Shown: one piece after another, positions 33,039 to 51,437 of the stretch | Numbering within the stretch: the stretch's first letter is position 1 | Layout: each line of letters starts with the position of its first letter | Origin: Terriglobia bacterium | GTDB taxonomy: Bacteria > Acidobacteriota > Terriglobia > Terriglobales > Acidobacteriaceae | NCBI GenBank assembly: GCA_020072585.1 | Contig: JAIQGL010000017.1 | Span: 62,001 to 126,000 of the forward strand | DNA: 64,000 nucleotides | Direction of reading: 5' to 3' | Made by a program: the position numbers and the translations under genes | The notes under the pieces: model-generated | The model's input: only the letters and a program-made list of their open reading frames with translations | Told to the model about the DNA's origin: nothing | Databases searched by the model: none

Positions 33039-33056
33039 CTGTGATCGCGGTCACAG
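33039..33056. promoter_or_regulatory. CRP/FNR-family-type palindrome upstream of sdh operon
   Basis: CTGTGA-TCGCGG-TCACAG, a perfect inverted repeat whose core TGTGA-N6-TCACA equals the E. coli CRP consensus. It ends one base before a -35 element, with its centre about 45 bases before the predicted start of transcription, an activator-like position. A second identical-consensus site lies before icd-mdh (51422-51437). Confidence 0.75.
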
Positions 33057-33057
33057 T

Positions 33058-33086
33058 TTGACGAGGGCTGATTGAGGTTTCATAAT
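33058..33086 (+). promoter_or_regulatory. Sigma-70-type promoter of the sdh operon
   Basis: TTGACG (33058-33063), a 17-base spacer and CATAAT (33081-33086). The predicted transcript begins near 33093, about 35 bases before sdhC. The rest of the 32885-33127 gap shows no gene. Confidence 0.65.
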
Positions 33087-33127
33087 ATAGAGTTTGCCTC
33101 GCAAATCTGATCGGAGCATAGCAGTAC

Positions 33128-33859
33128 ATGGCTAGTGTTGCCTCGCCTGTCGCGCGCGGAGTCCCGCCGATTCGTGCCGGTCAAGGCCATTCGTTCCTGT
33201 TGCGCCGCTTGCACTCTTTGAGCGGTATTATTCCAATTGGCGCGTTCCTGCTTGAGCATTTCATCTCCAACGCGTTTGCCACCAATGGCCCCAGGGCTTA
33301 TGCCGACCAGGTAAAATTTCTTACCGGACTGCCCTTTGTTCCGATTCTTGAGACAGTTGGAATCTATATCCCGCTGCTGTATCACGCTCTTTACGGCTTC
33401 TATATCTGGTTTCGGGGCGAATCCAACGTGAGCGATTATCCATGGGCGGGAAATTTCATGTATGCGGCCCAGCGCTGGACTGGCGGCATCGCCTTCATTT
33501 ACATCGCCTGGCACACCTACACAATGCGCTTTTCCGGAATCCACCTGCTGACGAATTCGCAGGCCGCATTCCACAAAGTCCAGATGGAGTTGCAGAGCCC
33601 GTGGGCAGGCGCGTTTTATGTGATCGGTATCACGGCTGCTTCGTGGCATTTCGCATACGGTATCTATTTGTTCTGCGCCAAGTGGGGCATCACCGTCAGC
33701 GAAACGTCGCGTAAGTGGATGGGCAGGGTATGCCTGGTGCTGGCTCTTACTCTGATTACCATTGGATGGGTAACGATGGCGGCGTTTTTCAAGCCGCAGT
33801 GGAAAAACATACCGGAGAAGTTACCGCCAGAGCAGAGCGTGGAAAGAAGCGTGCATTAG
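33128..33859 (+). CDS. sdhC: Succinate dehydrogenase cytochrome b558 subunit
   Basis: 243 residues, the single large membrane subunit of B-type succinate:quinone oxidoreductases (five TM helices, two haems b). Histidines likely to bind haem lie in LRRLHSLSGIIPIGAF, FLLEHF, LLYHALYGFYIWF, IAWHTYTMRF and SWHFAYGIYLF. It anchors SdhA/SdhB to the membrane and passes electrons to quinone. First gene of the sdhC-sdhA-small protein-sdhB operon, with a strong promoter and a CRP-like palindrome just upstream. The length matches the family. Confidence 0.93.
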   Translation: MASVASPVARGVPPIRAGQGHSFLLRRLHSLSGIIPIGAFLLEHFISNAFATNGPRAYADQVKFLTGLPFVPILETVGIYIPLLYHALYGFYIWFRGESNVSDYPWAGNFMYAAQRWTGGIAFIYIAWHTYTMRFSGIHLLTNSQAAFHKVQMELQSPWAGAFYVIGITAASWHFAYGIYLFCAKWGITVSETSRKWMGRVCLVLALTLITIGWVTMAAFFKPQWKNIPEKLPPEQSVERSVH

Positions 33860-34010: not shown

Positions 34011-35801
34011 ATGGCAATAAATCCCAAAATAATCGTAATCGGCGGCGGGCTTGCAGGCCTGGCAGCGACCATTAAAATTGCTGAAGCAGGCGGTCACGTC
34101 GATCTGTTTTCCATTGTGCCCGTGAAACGGTCGCATTCCGTATGCGCGCAGGGCGGCATCAATGCCGCCAAAAACCTGAAAGGTGAAGGCGACACAACCT
34201 GGCAGCACTTTGATGACACGATCTATGGCGGTGACTTCCTGGCTAACCAGCCGCCGGTCAAGGCCATGTGTGACAGTGCGCCCGCCATCATCGATCTACT
34301 GGACCGAATGGGCGTCACGTTTAATCGCACGACTGAAGGTCTGCTCGATTTTCGCCGTTTCGGTGGCACCCTTTTCAATCGCACCGCATTTGCGGGAGCC
34401 ACCACCGGCCAGCAGCTTCTGTACGCACTTGACGAGCAGGTACGCCGCTATGAGTCCGAAGGCCGGGTCACCAAGTTCGAGCACTGGGAATTCCTGAGTG
34501 CGGTGCTTGATACCAACCGCGTCTGCCGCGGCATCTGCGCCATGGAGCTCCGCAGCATGGAAGTACGGACCTTCCCGGCGGAAGCTATCATCATGGCAAC
34601 AGGCGGCATCGGCGCGATTTTTGGCAAGTCAACCAATTCAGTGGTCTGCACCGGTTCGGCCCAGTCTGCTCTGTACCAGCAAGGCTGCTTCTACGCCAAC
34701 GGCGAATTCATCCAGGTGCATCCCACTTGCATCCCGGGCGAAGACAAGCTGCGGTTAATGTCGGAGTCGGCGCGCGGTGAGGGCGGCCGCGTATGGGTGC
34801 CCAGAACCAAAGGCGATAAACGCGATTGGAAGAGCATTCCCGAATCCGAGCGCTGGTATTTTCTGGAAGAGTGGTATCCCAAATACGGCAACCTGGTGCC
34901 TCGTGACGTGGCTACCCGCGCCATTCACAAGGTTGTTTTCGAGAATGATCTTGGCATTGATGGACAGCCCATGGTCTATCTTGACCTGACGCACATTGAT
35001 CGCGAGACGCTCAACCGCAAGTTGGAAGGAATCTTGGAGATTTACGAGAAGTTTGTGGGCGACGATCCGCGCGACGTCCCCATGAAGATCTTCCCCGGCA
35101 TGCATTACACCATGGGCGGACTGTGGGTGGATTTCAACCAGTCCACCAACATCAAAGGTATCTTTGCGGCCGGCGAGTGCGAATATGGTTACCATGGCGC
35201 CAACCGCCTCGGCGCAAATTCTCTCGTTTCCTGTATCTACGGCGGCTTTGTTGCCGGCCCGCAGGCCGTTCTTTATGCCAAGAACAATATCAAGTCATCA
35301 GCCGGCGCCACCAGCACTGTATTTGATGCTGAGCGCAAACGCCAGGAAGAAGCCAACGCCGGCTTGCTGAGTTCAAACGGTACGGAAAATCCGTTCCGTC
35401 TCTGGCGCGAACTGGGTGAGTTGATGACGCGCAACTGCACCGTCATTCGCTACAACAAGAACCTGCAACAGACTGACGCCAAACTGGTTGAGTTCCTGGA
35501 ACGTTTCAATCACATCAACCTGAGCGACAAGAGCCAGTGGGCAAACACATCCTTTGTCTTCACGCGGCAGCTTTATAACATGCTGCAACTTTCCCGCGTG
35601 ATCGCACAGGGTGCGGCGTTGAGAGACGAGTCACGCGGCGCGCATTACAAACCGGATTTTCCTGACCGCGATGACAAAAATTTCCTGAAGACCACGAAGG
35701 CTTATTTCGCTCCGGATGCCGATGAGCCCAGGTTTGAATTTGAGCCTGTAGATATTTCACTGCTGCCGCCAAGACCGCGGCGGTATGACATGGCGAAATA
35801 G
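34011..35801 (+). CDS. sdhA: Succinate dehydrogenase flavoprotein subunit
   Basis: 596 residues. FAD-binding start IIVIGGGLAGLAATIKIAEAGG; RSHSVCAQGGINAA contains the His that binds FAD covalently in this family. Substrate-site residues lie in HPTCIPGEDKLRLMSESARGEGG, and GMHYTMGGLWVDFNQ...GLFAAGECEYGYHGANRLG-like (here IFAAGECEYGYHGANRLGAN) completes the site. It oxidises succinate to fumarate in the TCA cycle at the inner membrane. The small AAGG ribosome-binding site is supplied by the tail of an inserted repeat. Length fits B. subtilis-type SdhA. Confidence 0.96.
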   Translation: MAINPKIIVIGGGLAGLAATIKIAEAGGHVDLFSIVPVKRSHSVCAQGGINAAKNLKGEGDTTWQHFDDTIYGGDFLANQPPVKAMCDSAPAIIDLLDRMGVTFNRTTEGLLDFRRFGGTLFNRTAFAGATTGQQLLYALDEQVRRYESEGRVTKFEHWEFLSAVLDTNRVCRGICAMELRSMEVRTFPAEAIIMATGGIGAIFGKSTNSVVCTGSAQSALYQQGCFYANGEFIQVHPTCIPGEDKLRLMSESARGEGGRVWVPRTKGDKRDWKSIPESERWYFLEEWYPKYGNLVPRDVATRAIHKVVFENDLGIDGQPMVYLDLTHIDRETLNRKLEGILEIYEKFVGDDPRDVPMKIFPGMHYTMGGLWVDFNQSTNIKGIFAAGECEYGYHGANRLGANSLVSCIYGGFVAGPQAVLYAKNNIKSSAGATSTVFDAERKRQEEANAGLLSSNGTENPFRLWRELGELMTRNCTVIRYNKNLQQTDAKLVEFLERFNHINLSDKSQWANTSFVFTRQLYNMLQLSRVIAQGAALRDESRGAHYKPDFPDRDDKNFLKTTKAYFAPDADEPRFEFEPVDISLLPPRPRRYDMAK

Positions 35802-35923: not shown

Positions 35924-36121
35924 ATGGACCAGCAACAGCGCACGACATCGCCGAAGTTTTACAAGAACGCCGCCATTTTGTTCTACGTCATCGGCTTCAT
36001 CTTGTTGTGGCAGGCGATTGTGCATCGTGACTGGGCCTACGGTGCATTTGCGGGCATCACGTTCTTCAACGCCTTTATGACCACCCTGAAAGTTATTTCG
36101 TTACGGGAGACAAAACAGTAA
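35924..36121 (+). CDS. Small two-TM membrane protein within the sdh operon
   Basis: 65 residues: MDQQQRTTSPKFYKN then two hydrophobic helices (AAILFYVIGFILLWQAI and AYGAFAGITFFNAFMTTLKVI) joined by a short VHRDW loop. It overlaps sdhB by one base (TAATG junction), so the two are tightly coupled. Its position between sdhA and sdhB suggests an accessory or extra subunit of the succinate dehydrogenase complex or an assembly factor; that is inference. No named family recognised. The ribosome-binding site is weak (GGTTAGAAAAAA). Confidence 0.75.
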   Translation: MDQQQRTTSPKFYKNAAILFYVIGFILLWQAIVHRDWAYGAFAGITFFNAFMTTLKVISLRETKQ

Positions 36122-36867
36122 TGGCAAAGACCGTCATCCTCAAAATCAAACGCCAGGAAAGCCCTAAGGCCGCTGCGCGCTGGGAAGAGTTTGAACTTAC
36201 CTGGAAACCGGGGATGAATGTAATTTCCGCCATGATGGAGATCGCGGCTAATCCAGTTACGCGTGACGGCAAGACCACCACTCCCATTGCCTATGACTCC
36301 AATTGCCTGGAAGAGGTCTGCGGCTCCTGTGCCATGCTCATTAACGGCAGGGCGCGCATGGCATGTTCCGCGCTGGTGGATAAACTTGACCAGCCGATCC
36401 GCGTGGAACCCTTCAGCAAGTTCCCCATCGTCCGCGACCTGGCGGTGGACCGCAGCGTGATTTTTGAAAACCTAAAAGCGGTGAAGGCGTGGGTACCGGT
36501 GGACGGTACGTATGATCTCGGCTCCGGATTGCGCATCTATCCCACCGAACAGGAAGAGGCTTATCCAATCTCGCGCTGCATCTCCTGCTGCTGCTGCATG
36601 GAAGCTTGTCCTCAGTTCAATGAGGACACAGGCTTTGTCGGCGCAGCGACGATCGCCCAGGTGAGGCTATTCAACCAGCATCCCACCGGCAAGGCGCTGA
36701 AGCACGAACGACTTCAGGCGCTGATGGGCGATGGCGGCATACAGGAGTGTGGCTTTGCGCAAAACTGCGTTCAGGTCTGCCCCAAGGACATTCCGCTCAC
36801 CAAAGCCATTGCCGATACAGGCCGTGAGGTCATAAAGCAGGCGATCAAGGATTTCTTCCGCGGCTAA
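36121..36867 (+). CDS. sdhB: Succinate dehydrogenase iron-sulfur subunit
   Basis: 248 residues with all three cluster motifs: [2Fe-2S] CLEEVCGSCAMLINGRARMAC, [4Fe-4S] CISCCCCMEACP and [3Fe-4S] CGFAQNCVQVCP. Electrons pass through these from SdhA to the cytochrome b subunit. The middle motif has two additional adjacent cysteines (C-I-S-C-C-C-C), where Gly-Val or similar is more usual. The stop codon TAA interlocks with the stop of the convergent gene (CTAA), with no visible terminator between. Confidence 0.95.
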   Translation: MAKTVILKIKRQESPKAAARWEEFELTWKPGMNVISAMMEIAANPVTRDGKTTTPIAYDSNCLEEVCGSCAMLINGRARMACSALVDKLDQPIRVEPFSKFPIVRDLAVDRSVIFENLKAVKAWVPVDGTYDLGSGLRIYPTEQEEAYPISRCISCCCCMEACPQFNEDTGFVGAATIAQVRLFNQHPTGKALKHERLQALMGDGGIQECGFAQNCVQVCPKDIPLTKAIADTGREVIKQAIKDFFRG

Positions 36868-49922: not shown

Positions 49923-51350
49923 CTAAACTGCTGTTTTCTTGCGCCGGTCCACCATGTTTTCAACCATGTGCGTGGCAAACTCACTGGTCTTGACTTTGGT
50001 TGAACCCGGCAGCAGGCGCTCAAAGTCATACGTCACAAACTTCTGCAGGATCGTGGCTTCCAGGGATGTTTCAATCAGACGCGCTGCTTCAGACCATCCC
50101 ATGTAGTCAAGCATCATGACTCCGGAAAGGATGACCGATCCGGGGTTGATCACATCTTTGTCCGCGTATTTAGGGGCTGTGCCGTGCGTCGCCTCAAACA
50201 CTGCGTGCTGGTCACCCACGTTGGCGCCGGGGGCAATGCCCAAGCCGCCGACCTGAGCCGCACAAGCGTCAGAAATATAGTCGCCGTTTAGATTCGGCGT
50301 GGCCAGAATGTCATACTCTGCCGGCCGGATAATGACCTGCTGGAAGATGGAATCAGCAATGCGGTCATTCACCATGATCTTCTTTTTCCATGCGCTATTT
50401 CCGTGTGACTTGCCGAGCGAATCAAGCACGGTTTTCACTTCCTGCTCAACTTCGCGCCGGAAGCTTTCTGGAGCAAAATCCATTCCAGGTTCGACCATCG
50501 CCGCGTTCTGCTCCACGCTCAGGCTGGGATTCTTGTCTTTGTTGTCCAGGATCCAGCTCTCGCGCTCGGTCACGATCTGGTCGCGGAATTCGTCGCGTGC
50601 CACTTCATAGCCCCATTCACGGAAAGCGCCCTCAGTAAATTTCTGGATGTTGCCCTTGTGCACCAGAGTGACGGATCGTCTCTTGTGCGTGACCGCATGC
50701 TGAATGGCCATGCGCACCAGCCGTTTCGTGCCAAAGATGGAGATGGGCTTGATGCCGATCCCGGAGTCTTCACGAATGTGTTTTTTGGTCCCGGCGAGCA
50801 TGGTGTTATTGAGGAAATCCAGCAGCTTTTTGACTTCAGGGGTTCCCTGTTTCCATTCGATCCCGGCGTAAACATCCTCAGTATTTTCGCGGAAGATGAC
50901 TACGTTGAGCTGGTCAGGATGCTTTACCGGTGAAGGCACGCCCTGGTAATAACGTACCGGGCGGATACAGGCATAAAGGTCCATGATCTGCCGCAAAGCC
51001 ACGTTCAAAGAGCGAATACCGCCTCCAATGGGCGTAGTGAGCGGCCCCTTGATGGAGACATGGAGATCACGCGCGGCATCGACGGAGCCCTGAGGCAGCC
51101 AGTCGTTGAACTTGGTGAAGGCCTTTTCTCCGGCAAAGATTTCATACCAGTGAATCTTGCGTTTGCCCCCGTAGGCTTTTTCAACGGCGCCATCAAATAC
51201 GCGCACTGACGCAGCCCATATGTCACGGCCGGTGCCGTCACCCTCAATGTAAGGAATAATCGGATTGTCAGGAACCTGTAGCTTGCCGCCGGCAAAAGTA
51301 ATAGGACTGCCGCCTGCAGGCAGCGAAACTCCGTTATATGAAGACGCCAT
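49923..51350 (-). CDS. icd: Isocitrate dehydrogenase (NADP-type)
   Basis: 475 residues. Features of bacterial homodimeric [18 protein letters not shown], substrate-binding [20 protein letters not shown] and [66 protein letters not shown] and [15 protein letters not shown] preference is inferred from family likeness. ATG 51350 has GGGGAGGAAG ahead of it. It oxidatively decarboxylates isocitrate in the TCA cycle and is the first gene of icd-mdh, with a CRP-like palindrome upstream. Confidence 0.95.
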
Positions 51351-51389
51351 GCTTCCTCCCCGAAATACATTCACTATGCAAACCTTTTA

Positions 51390-51417
51390 AGTTAACATCG
51401 CAGCGGAGATGGCGCAA
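51390..51417 (-). promoter_or_regulatory. icd: Likely promoter of icd-mdh
   Basis: On the minus strand: TTGCGC (51412-51417), a 16-base spacer and TTAACT (51390-51395). It resembles the sdh promoter in that a TGTGA-N6-TCACA palindrome sits immediately upstream of the -35 element. Confidence 0.5.
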
Positions 51418-51421
51418 ACGC

Positions 51422-51437
51422 TGTGACAGTGGTCACA
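51422..51437. promoter_or_regulatory. CRP/FNR-family-type palindrome upstream of icd-mdh
   Basis: TGTGA-CAGTGG-TCACA, an exact match to the CRP half-sites, four bases upstream of the proposed icd -35. Its centre is about 46 bases from the predicted start of transcription, close to the distance seen at sdh. The divergent gene at 51486 could also respond to it. Confidence 0.7.

Follow-up and report, generated by a model that had tools for sequence, protein, structure and literature searches.

A CRP-type operator against the sdh promoter of an acidobacterium and the candidate cysteine-bearing regulator of its regulon

Introduction

Acidobacteria are abundant soil bacteria. Among regulators with related DNA sites, Rex is a sensor of NADH that uses TTGTGA-type half-sites in an operator of the form TTGTGA-N6-TCACAA, and the sites of FNR are of the TTGAT type. 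Control of sdhCAB by GlxR was reportedly described by Bussmann in 2009, and Gaston et al. are said to have described, in 1990, a stringent spacing for activation by CRP.

The pairing of R180/E181 of the recognition helix with TGTGA half-sites is a published rule that extends to HcpR proteins, where cAMP is not invoked (PMC1274295, PMC5701242). HcpR, DNR and NnrR proteins are described as devoid of the FNR-type cysteine motif (PMC1274295). A dyad centred near -41.5 occupies the class II activator position, and E. coli CRP placed out of phase loses activation, with 1.27-fold at -76.5 versus 105-fold at -71.5 (PMC6301791). The transcriptional response of Acidobacteria to low oxygen has already been measured (PMC11636273, PMC8407424).

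The operator and promoter at sdhC

The window, that is, the whole stretch of 64,000 nucleotides analysed here, contains the features collected in Table 1. The dyad upstream of sdhCAB consists of CTGTGA (33039-33044), TCGCGG (33045-33050) and TCACAG (33051-33056), and the single base 33057 lies between it and TTGACG, the -35 hexamer of a promoter with a 17 bp spacer; from the end of the core dyad to the ATG of sdhC there are 72 nt, and the sdhC transcript is predicted to begin near 33093. This layout (dyad, one-base gap, TTGACG-N17-CATAAT, sdhC) had been given in a preliminary description of the sequence and proved exact when the window was read again.

Table 1. Coordinates of the operators, promoters and genes at sdh and icd in the window
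Feature	Coordinates	Strand	Basis and remarks
Operator dyad CTGTGA-N6-TCACAG (core TGTGA-N6-TCACA, 33040-33055)	33039..33056	.	Upstream of sdhCAB; kept at this place in L042, L072, L071
-35 TTGACG, sdh promoter	33058..33063	+	Sequence; TTGA-type -35 across sdhC loci
-10 CATAAT, sdh promoter	33081..33086	+	Sequence; first base 25 nt after core dyad, versus regulon mode of 21-22 nt
sdhC, succinate dehydrogenase cytochrome b subunit (b558 type; model score 81 bits, under the NCBIfam cut-off of 96)	33128..33859	+	Pfam and NCBIfam
sdhA, flavoprotein subunit	34011..35801	+	Pfam and NCBIfam
sdhB, iron-sulfur subunit	36121..36867	+	Pfam and NCBIfam
Second perfect dyad, TGTGACCACTGTCACA toward icd	51422..51437	.	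Pattern scan; perfect at equal distance in congener G106 (L277)
Proposed -35 TTGCGC, icd promoter	51412..51417	-	Judged by eye
Proposed -10 TAACTT, with TG two bases upstream, icd promoter	51389..51394	-	Judged by eye; TGTTAnnTT in L278, L280, L283
icd, NADP-dependent isocitrate dehydrogenase	49923..51374	-	Pfam and NCBIfam

A regulon of near-perfect dyads

The perfect pattern TGTGA-N6-TCACA occurs 39 times in the source genome (G000; 6.9 Mb in 74 contigs) as against a single occurrence of a reversed control pattern, and the sum over 120 genomes of the family reaches 1295 dyads versus 85 control-pattern matches, which bears out the earlier statement that such a palindrome is unlikely by chance. 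Two perfect 10-base matches are found in the window (33040 and 51422). When up to two mismatches are allowed, the window count of 14 falls below that of shuffled sequences (mean 23.2), so that information resides only in near-perfect matches.

In the three congeners G000, G106 and G050, which carry 39, 39 and 34 perfect sites respectively, 87 of the 112 sites lie at most 300 nt upstream of a predicted start and 25 do not, while four lie more than 90 nt within a predicted gene; genes were predicted here with a home-made caller that scores codons and chooses greedily, so that starts and small genes are possibly wrong. The preliminary description had made its regulatory reading depend on the motif being rarer inside genes than upstream, and this is the distribution observed. 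The large regulon is mostly confined to the family of the source genome: outside it, 134 genomes of the phylum hold 317 dyads versus 53 control matches, with a median of 1 and ten or more dyads in five genomes.

The flanks of the half-sites follow (A/C)TGTGAY, and the form TGTGAY-N4-RTCACA, with the Y and R that adjoin the half-sites of a CRP operator, is present in 88 of the 112 sites of the three congeners. The same flanks bear on Rex, whose half-sites resemble these and for which sdh would be a sensible target as a repressor. Its operator TTGTGA-N6-TCACAA, however, matches none of the 112 sites, a T precedes TGTGA in 20 of 224 half-sites and an A follows it in 2%, and binding of Rex at the sdh site is highly improbable. 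The dyad at sdhC is almost certainly an operator of a CRP/FNR-superfamily regulon. The earlier proposal of a CRP/FNR-family activator, or of a repressor overlapping the -35, is thus sustained as regards the family of the protein by the genome count (39 versus 1) and by the scarcity of sites in genes (4/112).

Two further occurrences of related words deserve mention. Two perfect dyads at G000:C65:6737 and 7049 (L028:3038 and 3350) lie inside one predicted gene of 819 aa; no other site of the source genome reaches more than 90 nt into a predicted gene. In another family of the same phylum, the identical word TGTGAACGCGTTCACA is repeated at least six times on contigs C110, C134 and C149 of G166; its inner sequence is unlike that of the regulon, and it is perhaps a repeat element or the site of another regulator.

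Position of the sites and their targets

The position of the sites relative to promoters was assessed on 116 site-gene pairs within 300 nt, by counting as -10-like any hexamer that agrees with TATAAT in four or more of its six bases and has A as its second and T as its last base. Offsets 21 and 22 after the core dyad hold 40 such hexamers (19 and 21), versus a mean of 2.2 per offset, and 46 of the 116 pairs have one at offset 20-23, whereas 500 mononucleotide shuffles gave 7.5 on average and never more than 15. An offset of 21-22 brings the dyad centre near -41.5, hence to the class II activator position.

Groups of genes that have a site upstream in each of the three congeners comprise a radical SAM/SPASM protein (TIGR04053), acs, a PAS histidine kinase, the CRP/FNR gene itself, a divergent pair beside pckA, and the L001, L009 and L023 groups, which have no Pfam match. 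In the source genome pckA lies downstream of one gene of the divergent pair, the dyad of the PAS histidine kinase overlaps the predicted first codons, three usp genes are close to sites (L012, L015, L018), and the acs site in this genus is class II-like. Both sdhC and icd are preceded by sites in two of the three congeners (G000 and G106), and other targets shared by two of them include a pntA-like transhydrogenase, an ADP-forming acyl-CoA ligase, a ribosome-hibernation-like S30AE/cold-shock protein and a cytochrome c. At L017:2411-4243, two perfect dyads with 81 nt between them separate the diverging genes for a cytochrome c and for the TIGR04053 radical SAM protein; the TIGR04053 group adjoins dyads in all three congeners.

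The candidate regulator

The window is devoid of HTH_Crp_2 genes by profile search. Nine are found in the source genome by Pfam profile matches, and among them only G000:C43:257372-258097 has a dyad (at most one mismatch) near its start. Its product scores above cut-off with both PF00027 (64.4 bits) and PF13545 (67.7 bits), as a member of the CRP/FNR superfamily does. Within 300 nt upstream of its 30 best homolog loci in the family, its own included, a perfect dyad is present in 10 and a dyad with at most one mismatch in 21, the chance expectation being about 0.3 of 30 (31 words of 4^10 over some 305 positions). Across the 120 genomes, the number of dyads correlates with the number of homologs (rho 0.72, or 0.66 with genome size held constant, versus 0.19 for the control pattern), and the three genomes without a homolog have no dyad; exceptions are G054, with a strong homolog and three dyads, and G104, with a best E-value of 5.5e-51 and 22 dyads. 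Up to 12 homologs of the candidate match in the source genome.

Residues were compared by alignment with the E. coli CRP and FNR sequences. The equivalents of the DNA-contacting R180, E181 and R185 of CRP are kept in all 30 homologs, the recognition helix of the candidate being RETVSR, while each of the cAMP-contacting residues E72, R82, S83, T127 and S128 is kept in none of the 30, E72 falling in an alignment gap. Cysteines 13, 16, 25 and 64 are invariant in the 30 homologs and are spaced as Cx2Cx8C followed by an internal Cys64, versus Cys20, 23, 29 and 122 in FNR; these four cysteines also set the candidate apart from the HcpR type, which is marked by control of hcp and by lack of FNR-type cysteines. 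The candidate remains below the cut-offs of the curated models for CRP (NF008732, 63.3 bits for a cut-off of 266) and for Fnr (NF008365, 48 bits for a cut-off of 228), and its helix is not of FNR type either.

The autoregulatory sites, the operator positions, the regulon and the conserved residues are computed results. On these grounds, the sites are most probably bound by the candidate or by a paralog that shares its recognition helix. The paralogs L032, L035 and L036 share the R-E-R residues and are devoid of the four cysteines; since L032 and L036 share the helix without the cysteines, competition between paralogs is possible, and another paralog could be the owner of the sdh site.

Other regulators of the source genome differ in various ways. 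The helices of L037, L038, L039 and L040 are, by eye, of the TRARVSFF/TRSRVNFF type and not RETxSR, and presumably recognize another operator. L034 (G000:C3:162837-163070) is a CRP-like gene whose open frame, of only 127 aa, covers no more than the DNA-binding part; it is perhaps what is left of an L036-like paralog. The region G000:C43:251790-258164 brings together, within about 7 kb, two regulators of the RETVSR type and a usp gene.

Nature of the signal

Control by a cAMP-dependent CRP that sets sdh according to carbon or energy state, as in E. coli or as with GlxR in Corynebacterium, would agree with the perfect CRP consensus of the site, with GlxR and mycobacterial CRP as best PDB matches of the candidate, with the reported control of sdhCAB by GlxR, and with acs, pckA, icd and sdh, which are typical carbon-control genes. 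It is nonetheless improbable, as equivalents of R82, S83, T127 and S128 are missing from the candidate and from L032, L035 and L036, the R-E-x-x-x-R helix is missing, by eye, from L037-L040, and HcpR illustrates that the motif does not imply cAMP (PMC5701242, PMC1274295).

The absence of every cAMP contact checked in the candidate disfavours cAMP, and the four invariant cysteines together with the content of the regulon favour oxygen or redox state, which is probably the signal of the candidate; the N-terminal Cx2Cx8C motif and Cys64 are suggestive of a sensor based on Fe-S or on thiols. Of the three signals put forward in the preliminary description (cAMP, redox or oxygen), the first therefore loses ground, with the cAMP residues in 0/30 homologs, and the other two gain it, with the cysteines in 30/30 and a concordant regulon.

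A related genome, G047, which is probably that of Acidobacterium capsulatum ATCC 51196, has one match to the candidate, with the cysteine head, and ten perfect dyads. Among the genes adjoining these dyads, as predicted by the same home-made caller, the distance is 34 nt for cydA, 7 nt for a usp gene, 99 nt for a multihaem cytochrome c gene and 73 nt for a nitronate monooxygenase-like gene. Next to the regulator is another usp gene, preceded at 29 nt by a dyad with one mismatch. The only -10-like hexamer at cydA is at offset 28, versus 21-22 in the regulon, and no dyad with up to two mismatches occurs within 400 nt of pckA and icd. No more than about 10 kb separates the homolog from cydA, the two usp genes and the multihaem cytochrome c gene.

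In A. capsulatum, cydA is increased at low O2 by RT-qPCR, with transcripts that are high at every O2 level (PMC8407424). At 0.1 uM O2, transcripts of two usp genes rise 7-fold and 56-fold and those of a sensor kinase 84-fold; at low O2 pckA is increased 7.5-fold, icd and acs decrease, and sdh has no clear pattern (PMC11636273). The use of these transcripts as direct proof was rejected, the pckA and icd genes there being without a dyad and the induced usp genes being only possibly the dyad-bearing ones. Given that pckA and icd are without dyads and that acs falls despite a class II-like site, the link between the regulon and oxygen is suggestive and does not amount to proof.

A second site at icd

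The second perfect dyad of the window faces icd. In both G000 and G106, as judged by eye, TTGCGC begins four bases past the dyad and an extended -10 (TGT-TAACTT) stands at offset 27. The TGTTAnnTT string is also found, by eye, in L278, L280 and L283, all of them without a perfect dyad. Dyads at icd in three other genera are imperfect (one or two mismatches) and located 22-23 nt ahead of TATAAT, an arrangement that suggests activation there.

Age of the site and sign of its effect at sdh

An SdhC with 75% identity or more occurs in seven relatives. Three of these have the dyad directly against the -35 (perfect in L042 and L072, one mismatch in L071), and it is missing from this place in four, namely L043 (from the congener G050), L073, L074 and L129. 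In a set of 91 sdhC loci, own included, drawn from two collections in which some genomes possibly occur twice, a dyad with at most one mismatch is found upstream in 11, of which four have it at this place. The presence of the dyad upstream of sdhC in related species, which the preliminary description had made a touchstone, is thus verified in 3/7 close relatives and contradicted in 4/7, G050 included, and in all but 11 of the 91 loci. Ancient control of sdh was rejected, as the dyad at this place is limited to a few near relatives; the site is, by its distribution, a recent gain at the level of a clade.

Such a patchy distribution, with no dyad at up to one mismatch in 80 of 91 loci, would also suit a relic or a chance palindrome fallen near a promoter. 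Against this, the core half-sites are base-for-base the same in L042 and L072 with a changed N6 (L071 having one mismatch), and the site is one of 39 in the genome, so that neutrality is very improbable.

A TTGA-type -35, a spacer of 16-18 bp and a -10 are found upstream of sdhC in 89 of the 91 loci, with or without a dyad, in a scan run without control by shuffling. Loci devoid of the dyad have the same sdh promoter in an alignment of close relatives, L042 being judged apart. In both G000 and G106, the near-consensus -35 of sdhC starts two bases past the core dyad and the -10 is at offset 25. Given this offset in the two genomes, activation of sdh from the class II position was considered and found unsupported.

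Activation from the actual position is a distinct proposal, in which the same regulator at the same site would be productive at -46 with the host RNA polymerase, and sdh and icd would rise with the active regulator. Most of the regulon appears activator-like by its -10 offsets, and the imperfect icd dyads of other genera stand 22-23 nt before TATAAT. In L041, L042, L071 and L072 the -35 keeps a fixed distance from the dyad, 2 nt from the core, also with an 18-bp spacer, which is explicable by a specific contact. Activation by CRP at -49.5 is reported for an E. coli promoter, albeit one that works with sigma28 (PMC2859248). The near-consensus -35 and -10, which are also present where the dyad is absent, make an activator unneeded, however, and the dyad is 3-4 nt off the class II register; activation at sdhC is, on balance, rather unlikely. 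Repression is favoured by the existence of the promoter without the dyad and by the position of the dyad out of class II register, and is given an even chance as the sign of the effect at sdh.

In the repression mechanism proposed here, the protein encoded at G000:C43:257372-258097, under its own control, or a paralog with the same helix, would bind TGTGA half-sites through the three CRP residues. It would have no cAMP pocket, and its Cx2Cx8C motif and Cys64 would sense oxygen or redox state by means of an Fe-S cluster or thiols. At many targets the regulator would sit near -41.5 and act as a class II activator. At sdhC, and likewise at icd, it would lie against the -35, with its centre near -46 and on a different face of the helix, where the active (reduced, low-oxygen) form would hinder the use of the -35 by RNA polymerase and lower sdh and icd expression. 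The whole of this explanation, in which an operator of the CRP/FNR regulon and the cysteine-bearing candidate hinder sdh and icd at low oxygen, is judged fairly probable. A broader proposal is put forward tentatively and may well not hold in full: a family of sensors of oxygen or redox state, with CRP specificity and an FNR-like but differently spaced four-cysteine site (Cx2Cx8C and a cysteine of the beta-roll), would govern a large regulon for low oxygen in acidobacteria of the Terriglobia type. It would activate usp, acs and the pckA region from -41.5 and, through newly gained sites abutting the -35, brake sdh and icd in one clade.

If true, these proposals would provide a candidate master regulator, an operator and a list of targets for the acidobacterial response to low oxygen, and a CRP operator would be served by a cAMP-independent, cysteine-bearing protein. 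They would also mean that a lineage wires the TCA cycle into a regulon network through operator gain, for which the sdh and icd sites offer a clean test case, with an operator gained at a pre-existing promoter.

Comparison with known systems

The DNA motif and the superfamily are known, while the CRP-type reading of DNA with an unusual four-cysteine head and such a regulon was not found in the literature searched. The terms fnr and crp are absent from the main text of the two papers on acidobacterial transcription at low O2 (PMC11636273 and PMC8407424), no title naming such a regulon was found in the literature searched on acidobacterial FNR/CRP regulation, and the search for an Fe-S FNR-type protein with TGTGA sites found only work on Desulfovibrio.

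HcpR1 of Desulfovibrio desulfuricans, a member of the CRP/FNR superfamily involved in nitrosative stress, resembles the candidate in its perfect TGTGA-N6-TCACA site, in a helix with R, E and R at positions 1, 2 and 6, and in that cAMP is not invoked (PMC5701242). HcpR1 also binds its own promoter (PMC5701242), and the candidate likewise has a dyad at its own promoter. For HcpR1, heme is the proposed means of sensing NO, whereas the candidate has four invariant cysteines, and unlike HcpR1, whose targets are nap or hcp genes, the candidate is associated with acs, the pckA region, usp, icd and sdh.

E. coli FNR, an oxygen sensor of the Fe-S type with an oxygen-labile [4Fe-4S] cluster and with three N-terminal cysteines and an internal one, shares with the candidate the superfamily fold and the possession of four cysteines, two N-terminal ones of the candidate aligning with Cys20 and Cys23, and the targets in the related A. 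capsulatum include cydA. In contrast with FNR, the third cysteine of the candidate comes after eight residues and the fourth is Cys64, aligned to Arg72 of FNR, and not Cys122; its helix has R where FNR has V, and its DNA site is of the TGTGA and not of the TTGAT type.

GlxR of Corynebacterium glutamicum has the same DNA consensus, TGTGANNTANNTCACA (PMC4254451), and is among the closest solved structures of the candidate by sequence. It is activated by cAMP, whereas the candidate is devoid of the cAMP residues tested, and it has no aligned Cx2Cx8C head, the match starting from residue 40. Finally, E. coli CRP is like the present system in operator sequence, in DNA-contact residues and in the class II geometry of many targets, and differs from the candidate, which has no cAMP pocket and carries a cysteine head.
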